A stretch of DNA of 41,544 nt from an uncultured Prochlorococcus sp. GTDB taxonomy: Bacteria > Cyanobacteriota > Cyanobacteriia > PCC-6307 > Cyanobiaceae. The stretch is taken from assembly GCA_902622625.1 (NCBI GenBank), contig CACNQS010000012.1, positions 1 through 41,544 of the forward strand. The letters run 5' to 3'. Both the position numbers and the translations under genes were made by a program. The notes under the pieces were generated by a model. That model saw only the letters and a program-made list of their open reading frames with translations. It had not been told where the DNA came from and made no database searches. Positions 17,739-39,818 of this stretch are shown piece by piece (the first letter of the stretch is position 1; the number at the start of each line of letters is the position of its first letter).

Positions 17739-17831
17739 ATTACAAAAGCATTTTTACGGATTTACTATAAAAACAAATCAGTTAAGATTTGTAAGCTTAC
17801 TTGAAATTTTCATGTAAGAATTAGGTAATTG

Positions 17832-17868
17832 AGAGATTGTTTTTAGCTAAGAAACAATCTCTTTTTTT
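17832..17868 (+). terminator. Rho-independent terminator
   Basis: AGAGATTGTTT (17832-17842) pairs perfectly with AAACAATCTCT (17852-17862), then a run of T to 17868. It would end the transcript of the 17523-17738 gene. Confidence 0.85.
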
Positions 17869-17884
17869 ACAAATATTTTTTCTC

Positions 17885-26620: not shown

Positions 26621-26682
26621 CACTTACGTTCATCCAAGTTTATATCTCTGGACGCATGAAATGGGAGTAAGGAACGGGATTC
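26621..26682 (+). ncRNA. Glutamine-riboswitch-like leader (Downstream-peptide motif type)
   Basis: The bases CGTTC (26627-26631) pair with GAACG (26672-26676) to close the element; TCC (26633-26635) pairs with GGA (26650-26652); CAT/ATG around GAA (26655-26663) makes a further hairpin. The ordered landmarks GTTCATCC, GGACG, GGAGTAAGGAACG match what I know of the glnA and Downstream-peptide RNAs of cyanobacteria, which bind glutamine. It sits about 20 bases before a 56-aa gene, the usual position. No covariance search was run. Confidence 0.75.
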
Positions 26683-26701
26683 TCATTAACTGCAAAAAAT
26701 C

Positions 26702-30938: not shown

Positions 30939-31187
30939 TTAAAAAAAACTGTTGAGTCGATAAGTTTCTTTCCACCCTTCTTCTAATAGTTTTTTATATT
31001 CTTTTCTCGCTTTTTCGATAGATTCAACCCTAGAGCCTTTCATAATTGGCTTACTTGATTGCTTAAGCAAACAACCATAAGAGATTAAAATTGCATTAAT
31101 CAAAGAAGGGTTCTTAGAACTATCATCAAAAGGTTCAAATACTTTAATCCTCGATCTGGCATTATTGATTAAAGTAAATTTTTCCAT
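30939..31187 (-). CDS. DUF1651 family protein, 82 aa
   Basis: Has the family layout: a short beta-like start, KPIMKGSRVESIEKARKEY, and LLEEGWKET near the end. Related to 33709-33954 and, more distantly, to 21303-21572. Function unknown. Its ATG lies 1 base after a minus-strand terminator T-run. Confidence 0.75.
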   Translation of the reverse strand: MEKFTLINNARSRIKVFEPFDDSSKNPSLINAILISYGCLLKQSSKPIMKGSRVESIEKARKEYKKLLEEGWKETYRLNSFF

Positions 31188-31212
31188 AAAAAAAGGGCGT
31201 TAGCTTCGCCCC
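31188..31212 (-). terminator. Minus-strand hairpin terminator without a gene upstream
   Basis: GGGCG (31195-31199) pairs with CGCCC (31207-31211); seven A precede on the plus strand, so the minus strand has a T run. No minus-strand gene lies upstream until 32087, which suggests an unannotated RNA. Confidence 0.6.
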
Positions 31213-31354
31213 AATCAAAAAGCGGGATAATCCCCATCACCCAACCTTTTTAAAATCTTAGCACTACATATGGTGTTTGTAAGTATTTAAAATTACCTAT
31301 TTATGGGGTTGTTTGTTTCTGTTTAATTTGTCATTATAGGAGTCCCCATCACCT
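31213..31354. ncRNA. Candidate small RNA region
   Basis: No gene from 31188 to 31481. The stretch is bounded by outward-pointing terminators on both strands. TCCCCATCACC occurs at 31231-31241 and 31343-31353. A minus-strand TATAAT lies at 31338-31333 and could start an RNA of about 140 bases ending at the minus terminator. One or two small RNAs are likely; the exact ends are not visible. Confidence 0.4.
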
Positions 31355-31378
31355 AGGCTCGTAAGAGTCTTTTTTTTT
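31355..31378 (+). terminator. Plus-strand hairpin terminator without a gene upstream
   Basis: AGGCTC (31355-31360), loop GTAA, GAGTCT (31365-31370) with one G-U pair, then T to 31378. All genes in the preceding 800 bases are on the minus strand. Confidence 0.6.
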
Positions 31379-31481
31379 GCTATTTTTCCTTTTAGGCTTT
31401 AGCCCTTTTTAATTAGTGTTTAAAAACTTTTTATTTAATTTTTAAATTTAATAATTAATAATTAAAAAAATAGTTTTAATA

Positions 31482-31793
31482 ATGCAAACTTACATCGTTC
31501 ACTGGCAGTTTCCAGATCAAGAAAGTCATATGCAAGGGGCCGAAGCTTTTGCGGGTTTTGTTGAAGGAGGATGCGAAGGTGATGAATTTGATGGGTTTAA
31601 AGTTCTTAATCGAGTAGTAAATCCTGAGGGAGCTAATGGTTGGGCAATAGTTGAATCTTCAAATCATCAGAACATTTGGAAATGGAGTAGTATCTGGGTC
31701 GATAATTTTGGCGTAGAAATAGAAGTCACACCAGTTCTGACTGATAAAGAATTTCTTTCCGTCCATAAAGAAATTGCAGCGGCCTCAAACTAA
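31482..31793 (+). CDS. DUF3303 family protein, 103 aa
   Basis: A ferredoxin-like fold small protein: YIVHWQFPDQESHMQGAEAF, then GANGWAIVESSNHQNIWKW and VTPVLTDKEF. One of three paralogues in the window (35353, 35837). Function unknown. Confidence 0.8.
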   Translation: MQTYIVHWQFPDQESHMQGAEAFAGFVEGGCEGDEFDGFKVLNRVVNPEGANGWAIVESSNHQNIWKWSSIWVDNFGVEIEVTPVLTDKEFLSVHKEIAAASN

Positions 31794-36891: not shown

Positions 36892-37024
36892 CAAGAAACC
36901 CTTCCAGAAATTCCAACTACTGAAAGGGTTATTAAATCGACTCGCAACTATATAGAATCAATTTATGTCTTGCAGCAAACGTAGAGTGAGCTGATGAGGT
37001 TTGGCCTCAATTAATTTATAGCAA
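36882..37024 (+). repeat. 143-nt conserved element, copy A
   Basis: Matches 39676-39818 with 6 substitutions and no indels. It begins in the last codons of the YQ gene and is otherwise noncoding. It has a hairpin of about 10 pairs (AACCCTTCCAG with CTGAAAGGGTT), then GACTCGCAACTATAT, CTTGCAGCAAACGTAGAG and TGAGGTTTGGCCTCA, which can also fold. Probably a structured RNA or 3' UTR. Confidence 0.75.
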
Positions 37025-39685: not shown

Positions 39686-39818
39686 CAAGAAACCCCTTCA
39701 GAAATTCCAACTACTGAAAGGGTTATTAAATCGACTCGCAACTATATTGAATCAATCTATGTCTTGCAGCAAACGTAGAGTGTGCTGACGAGGTTTGGCC
39801 TCAATTAATTTATAGCAA
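39676..39818 (+). repeat. 143-nt conserved element, copy B
   Basis: Second copy of 36882-37024. The hairpin left arm is AACCCCTTCAG instead of AACCCTTCCAG; both pair with the same right arm with one C-A mismatch at different places, so the fold is kept. No coding frame is shared. Confidence 0.75.

Follow-up and report, generated by a model that had tools for sequence, protein, structure and literature searches.

A putative antisense small RNA against rpoD4 and a candidate decoy of its target, divergently arranged in a repeated module of Prochlorococcus

Two intrinsic terminators, one on each strand, face outward from an intergenic gap in an uncultured Prochlorococcus, and the question raised by this locus is which transcripts they end. 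The gap lies on a contig of 41.5 kb, which is the whole stretch of DNA analysed here (the window); it belongs to a draft genome of 1.26 Mb and is assigned by sequence searches to high-light Prochlorococcus. A sequence-only reading had recognized both terminators, described each as lacking a gene upstream on its own strand, given the gap between them as 140 bases with one sequence contained in it twice, and proposed overlapping antisense small RNAs as the explanation. Both terminators are indeed present, with a distance of 142 bases between their stems, and the repeated sequence is the 11-mer TCCCCATCACC, which occurs exactly at the two motif positions listed in Table 1 and at no further position in the window. 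Moreover, the closest same-strand upstream genes are ~0.8 kb away on either side; thus, the description of the terminators as orphans is fair. The minus-strand terminator also lies directly before the ATG of a small DUF1651-like open reading frame (ORF; 31187-30939, minus strand), for which the Pfam score of 17.5 is below the cut-off of 22. A riboswitch or leader function for this ORF was considered and rejected because the ORF changes at other copies of the locus and the intergenic stretch stays constant. A terminator U-run that directly adjoins the ATG of an ORF lying downstream is found both in the window (30939-31187, minus strand) and in MED4 (348968-349357, plus strand), and read-through at these terminators would yield mRNAs with the small RNA as a leader.

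A terminator pattern alone is not unusual in the window (10 were found against 3.7 ± 1.9 expected); therefore, comparison must decide. Conservation of the gap in other strains was examined with a query comprising positions 31140-31500, which has a related stretch in 112 of 197 related genomes. Positions 44-248 of this query, approximately from terminator to terminator, recur at separate loci with unrelated flanks and thus delimit a module, which is found in one to three copies per genome across high-light Prochlorococcus. In MED4, in whose genome Yfr13 and Yfr6 were found at their published coordinates, the module occupies 348775-348979. Altogether, 128 distinct copies were collected, many of them akin, and counts among them are therefore not counts of independent events. 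Each copy contains both motif copies, and the motif-to-motif spacing within the genus is always 111-114 bases. The minus terminator is kept on its strand in 123 of the 128 copies and the plus terminator in 126 (2 and 0, respectively, in the wrong-strand controls), and, given this comparison of homologous copies, the predicted terminators are far beyond chance. Within the module, conservation is highest at the plus terminator, at the palindrome CACTACATATGGTG, and in both CCCCATCACC copies. That the motif does not vary in the fetched sets is partly due to selection because most sets were found via the motif, and searches for the exact motif miss variants, e.g., CCCCATCACT, that still pair through G-U. 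Three module copies (L082, L083, and L085) keep both motifs and have apparently lost one of the two terminators. Conservation thus argues well for two unannotated small RNAs, which are very probably encoded here, one per strand.

The module did not match any known family or mobile element among those searched. In particular, no match was found in the phages and plasmids searched; 93 viral contigs share a 15-mer with it, and only 1 of these 93 has a weak 24-base match. Rfam 15 gave no match at or above the gathering score at the module or at 12 related loci, and permissive thresholds gave chance matches only. Elsewhere in the window, Rfam matches comprise two Yfr13 RNAs (36911-37008 and 39705-39802, both on the minus strand) as well as one Yfr19 and one glutamine-II riboswitch, listed at 17795-17876 (plus) and 26624-26686 (plus). 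A coding role of the module was rejected because indels break the short frames that follow the motif.

Table 1. Features of the module, in window positions, and of the related solo locus in MED4 (last line, MED4 positions)
Feature	Position	Strand	Description
Whole module	31183..31385		Stretch also present at separate loci within the genus; flanks differ
Minus-RNA intrinsic terminator	31188..31212	-	Stem 31212-31194 GGGGCGAAGCTAACGCCC, then TTTTTTT
Predicted minus RNA (putative decoy), ~61 nt	31188..31248	-	Inferred from -10 box and terminator
Minus RNA hairpin	31217..31251	-	AAAAAG...CUUUUU stem, UGAU-GGGG-AUUA apical part; from folding
Motif copy 1	31231..31241	-	Minus-strand reading GGTGATGGGGA, resembles rpoD4 start-codon region
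Minus -10 box TAAGAT	31255..31260	-	TANNNT
Central palindrome CACTACATATGGTG, proposed operator	31262..31275		In solo copies, constant spacing to the second site with unrelated sequence between
Second upstream site CTATTTATGGGGTTG of plus promoter	31297..31311	+	Counterpart of solo CTACAGATAGGGGGTTG
Predicted plus -10 box CATTAT	31332..31337	+	CATGAT in others; same motif distance as solo AAAAAT
Predicted plus sRNA, ~38 nt	31341..31378	+	5' seed, then terminator hairpin; from solo-copy homology
Motif copy 2, seed UCCCCAUCACC	31343..31353	+	5' end of plus sRNA
Plus-sRNA intrinsic terminator	31355..31378	+	Stem 31355-31370 AGGCTCGTAAGAGTCT, then T9
Solo sRNA in MED4 (predicted)	~936795-936839

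The extent of the plus-strand RNA is suggested by a paralogue that lacks a partner on the other strand. Exact CCCCATCACC or GGTGATGGGG sites number four in the genome to which the window belongs: two in the module, one at a solitary (solo) sRNA locus (C34:5968), and one at the start of a sigma-factor gene (C30:8646). The solo locus is present in 55 of the 119 genomes searched, all of the same genus and MED4 among them (palindrome at 936711, motif at 936799). It is built from the palindrome CACTATCTGTAGTG, followed 43 ± 1 bases on by GGGGGTTGC and then by TTTAAAAATAAGG, TCCCCATCACC, and a terminator. Although fixed in length, the stretch separating the two upstream sites is random in sequence, and each site changes independently of the other, as would be expected of DNA bound by protein; an RNA stem between them was rejected since the site pairs vary independently, as DNA sites would. 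With its upstream half being operator-like DNA, the solo RNA should begin just 5' of the motif and measure ~45 nt. The stem of this predicted RNA covaries, with 95.4% of cells paired and 8 cells changed on both sides, and 0 of 500 shuffles reached as high a value. The corresponding parts of the module lie at near-solo distances (palindrome, 31262; GGGGTTG, 31305; CATTAT, 31332; motif, 31343), and CTATTTATGGGGTTG and its solo counterpart CTACAGATAGGGGGTTG, in particular, are nearly equally distant from the motif. The predicted plus -10 box is poor and non-consensus, and the start of the plus RNA has been placed by homology to the solo copies. Within the same genome, the palindrome pattern occurs only at the module and at the solo sRNA locus. 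Extra CACTA-N4-TAGTG palindromes off sRNA loci were noticed in MED4 (G014:C1, 531520-531533) and MIT9515 (G021:C1, 1262318-1262331), and these are possible further sites of the same factor.

On the minus strand, beside the palindrome, TANNNT is kept in 126 of the 126 copies that have a scorable palindrome, and its inner bases vary (TAAGAT in 78 copies, TAGGAT in 19, TAAAAT in 7, TATTAT in 5, TATGAT in 5, and others in the remainder); such a hexamer with three free inner bases has the look of a cyanobacterial -10 box. The start of the minus RNA was placed 7 nt past this box, at ~31248. For the MED4 copy, the corresponding predictions are ~348839 for the minus and ~348931 for the plus start, and the solo RNA of MED4 is predicted to start at ~936796. 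According to folding, the predicted transcript carries GGGUGAUGGGGAU inside a GGGG-loop hairpin, by which the motif would be partly hidden.

The fourth exact site offers a candidate target. There, at C30:8646, the ATG that starts a gene for a 339-aa sigma factor (AGGAGGCCAGGGTGATGGGGATCC) lies within the complement GGTGATGGGG; the protein contains TIGR02997 and sigma-70 regions 1.2, 2, 3, and 4. The MED4 orthologue of this gene lies at ~1632707. PMM1697 of MED4 has been named RpoD4 (PMC2921402); judging from position, and by type, the orthologue, a group 2 stress sigma factor, fits PMM1697/RpoD4. Across 50 genomes of the genus, the rpoD4 start reads GAGGCCAGGGTGATGGGGATCC without variation, and complementarity to the start-codon region is conserved. 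The whole rpoD4 leader is conserved as well, and invariance of the start region alone is therefore no proof of pairing. Beyond the pairing site, the 60-base leader is almost invariant in the genus (L194, 1440-1505, and its orthologues), which suggests further control. The chance of finding the 10-mer at any start codon of the same genome is ~0.002-0.007, and among the one-mismatch sites checked in this genome, only two have a long-frame ATG near the motif, both of which seem to be gene-internal. Pairing between the plus RNA and the rpoD4 start is predicted at -15.2 kcal/mol, compared with -5.4 ± 2.3 for shuffled sequences, and the corresponding predictions are -15.5 kcal/mol for the plus and minus RNAs and -16.8 kcal/mol for the solo RNA and rpoD4. 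Relative to shuffled controls, the predicted binding is stronger by ~4 (plus RNA) and ~5 (solo RNA) standard deviations. Another small RNA, Yfr1, was predicted to bind PMM1697, yet this gene is among its non-targets (PMC3142192); a less strong connection between an sRNA and this sigma factor has therefore failed before.

Both the motif and its presumed target extend beyond the genus. Of 300 family genomes, 232 contain CCCCATCACC with a T-run following within 12-34 bases, in 53 of 59 genera and often several times per genome, and the reversed-pattern control is found in only a handful of genomes. GGTGATGGGGATNCC is present in 177 of the 300 genomes and in 42 of the 59 genera, with a reversed control close to 0; of 30 such sites that were fetched, 29 are rpoD4 starts encoding MGIPL. 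Operator-like sites accompany most of the fetched sRNA loci. In these searches, both of which were exact, the sRNA motif and the rpoD4 motif do not strictly co-occur across genera: one genus (g56) mostly has the target without the sRNA, and two (g53 and g92) mostly have the sRNA without the exact target. A second kind of CCCCATCACC terminator (GATAGTRGAT..GTCCCCATCACC.GGCCCGGAGTGC..GCACCCGGGTTTTTT) was observed at L474, L489, L491, L499, L502, L503, L531, and L543; at several of these loci it is located just 3' of an apparent ..VGSGFDTSD gene end, without operator sites, and it may represent a 3'-end-derived sRNA with the same seed.

Homologous minus arms are also present in other genera, where a second arm is located 144-204 bases upstream at 34 distinct loci. 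These arms often consist of TTGACA-N5-TANNNT, followed by GGCCGGGUGAUGGGGAUC, the other stem half, and a terminator; TANNNT is found 12-17 nt upstream in 32 of the 34, and TTGAC in ~20. GGCCGGGUGAUGGGGAUC is the rpoD4 sequence less one A. Moreover, the flanks, which lie outside the search pattern, match rpoD4 too, with G at -6 in 33 of 34 arms, C at -5 in 30 of 34, and mostly AUC. Thus, GGCC-GGGUGAUGGGGAUC of a minus arm stands against GGCCAGGGUGAUGGGGAUC of rpoD4, and a GGGG loop is present in both folds, that of the rpoD4 start being GGG.GAU-GGGG-AUC.CCC. On account of this flank match and the GGGG-loop fold of rpoD4, the minus RNA resembles the start of the presumed target. The minus-arm stem contains compensating pairs (CCG/CGG, CUG/CAG, and CCA/UGG), and its G-U cells fit the minus strand; in other genera, the hairpin covaries to a modest degree (both sides changed in 6 cells; 6/500 shuffles).

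We propose that the module probably encodes both an antisense sRNA directed at rpoD4 and a decoy that imitates the target of this sRNA. If transcribed from the start placed above, the plus RNA would expose UCCCCAUCACC at its 5' end, pair with GGGUGAUGGGGA around the rpoD4 AUG, and block translation; the solo sRNAs would likewise pair at the rpoD4 start and block its translation. Since the 11-mer is read in one sense at one end of the module and in the opposite sense at the other, the two RNAs are complementary in trans. The minus RNA, with GGGUGAUGGGGAU in its GGGG-loop hairpin, would mimic the rpoD4 start and thereby titrate both the plus RNA and its solo paralogue, and it is the resemblance described above that points to this decoy role. 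The balance would probably be set by a factor that binds the common palindrome. The palindrome directly adjoins the minus -10 box, where repression would be expected, and its centre is ~72 bp upstream of the plus start, from where activation is possible; in this position, one factor could both repress the decoy and activate the sRNA.

Both RNAs might be real without the minus RNA being a decoy. It could instead be a regulator with targets of its own or encode a mini-peptide (MGIKRS-like in some genera), and its resemblance to rpoD4 would then reflect common pairing with a C-rich partner. A short ORF does start at the motif ATG in many arms, but the frame is not kept: its length and its sequence past codon 3 differ between arms, and the orthologues of the window carry indels in it. 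Similarly, other C-rich RNAs are conceivable partners of the GGGG loop, but agreement with rpoD4 goes beyond the seed, to the flanking GGCC and the AUC that follows, and we therefore consider such a non-decoy role unlikely.

A further alternative concerns the geometry of the pair. The sequence-only reading stands as far as two unannotated RNAs, one per strand, are concerned; their overlap, by contrast, probably does not, given the divergent promoters. The minus -10 box is located to the left of the palindrome and the plus promoter to its right, so the RNAs point outward; most likely, they are short and divergent and share neither an overlap nor a common template. If they did overlap, as had been proposed, two ~139-nt RNAs would run across the middle and pair in cis, the minus RNA starting downstream of TATAAT (31338-31333) and the plus RNA downstream of a GATAAT that immediately precedes motif copy 1. 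These boxes are kept in 109 and 112 of the 128 copies, respectively, and overlapping noncoding RNA pairs, Yfr8/Yfr9 and Yfr6/Yfr14, have been proven in MED4 (PMC2518516). However, TATAAT is partly forced by overlapping plus-strand signals, whereas the TANNNT beside the palindrome varies just as a -10 box should. Moreover, the inter-operator sequence of the solo loci, random and fixed in length at 43 ± 1 bases, fits DNA-binding sites rather than RNA, and in other genera the motifs lie further apart, at 144-204 bases, with the arms intact. Overlapping transcripts are thus decidedly unlikely.

The module might also be a dispersed DNA element that insulates or marks loci and yields no functional RNA. 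Its copies at unrelated loci and the outward-facing terminators around an operator would suit such an element, but both the arms with the motif and the stems of the hairpins show conservation and covariation, and at another place in the genome the motif corresponds to a start codon, which makes this explanation very improbable. A type I toxin-antitoxin system, in which one strand would encode a short toxic peptide and the opposite strand an antisense RNA, is scarcely credible: small paired RNAs on both strands in multiple copies would be in keeping with it, and the same idea has been raised for Yfr8/Yfr9 (PMC2518516), but no peptide is conserved, and indels break the short frames among orthologues and paralogues.

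Several described systems bear comparison with the divergent sRNA and its putative decoy. Like the module, Yfr8/Yfr9 and Yfr6/Yfr14 of MED4 consist of RNA genes that occupy both strands of a single intergenic region, and Yfr8/Yfr9 is located in genomic island 1, near the MED4 module copy. Unlike the module RNAs, they are 290 and ~250 nt long, overlap, are unrelated in sequence, and contain peptide frames. Identity with either pair was rejected: MED4 339887-340241 (Yfr8/Yfr9) has no significant BLAST match to the module, and for 627729-628062 (Yfr6/Yfr14) there is neither a significant match nor a conserved 33-aa frame in the module. The closest parallel is provided by Yfr1 and Yfr2 of picocyanobacteria, two short sRNAs that interact through nearly complementary exposed motifs (PMC6778093) and of which Yfr2 is multicopy. 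In contrast to the module, their motifs are GGAAACA and ACUCCUCACAC, they do not form a single divergent module, and they involve no start-codon mimicry; neither of the two motifs is found in the short RNAs predicted here. Yfr103, of 290-328 nt, has been described in marine Synechococcus and low-light Prochlorococcus, and high-light strains are not listed (PMC5069720). It is comparable to the module in being multicopy and very abundant and in having an imperfect palindrome upstream of its start (-29 to -58). Its length compared with the ~38 nt predicted for the plus sRNA argues against identity, the two having been compared by description only. Seven Yfr103-type paralogues are reported in CC9605, and six sRNA sites were found here in G408, which we take to be that strain.

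Bacterial sRNA sponges and target mimics include the chb mRNA, a decoy of ChiX, and SroC, which acts on GcvB. Like these sponges, the minus RNA would contain a copy of an sRNA pairing site and titrate the sRNA. The ChiX and GcvB sponges derive from mRNAs or processed fragments, whereas the candidate decoy here would have a dedicated gene beside that of its sRNA, with a common operator. Voigt reportedly carried out dRNA-seq of MED4 and MIT9313 in 2014, and the module RNAs may have an earlier name in that work on MED4 transcript starts.

Protein regulators are scarce in both Prochlorococcus and marine Synechococcus, though all MED4 sigma factors cycle over the day (PMC2663038). It is plausible, and we regard the case as evenly balanced, that marine picocyanobacteria possess a family-wide switch in which a dedicated gene, arranged divergently to an sRNA and under joint control with it, yields an mRNA look-alike that neutralises this sRNA and sets RpoD4 translation. 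The design principle would be simple: one short direct repeat, read outward from divergent promoters, would give rise to an RNA and its antidote. If this is true, an sRNA-decoy pair acting at the start codon of a sigma factor would constitute a missing layer of day-cycle control in organisms that are among Earth's most abundant phototrophs.
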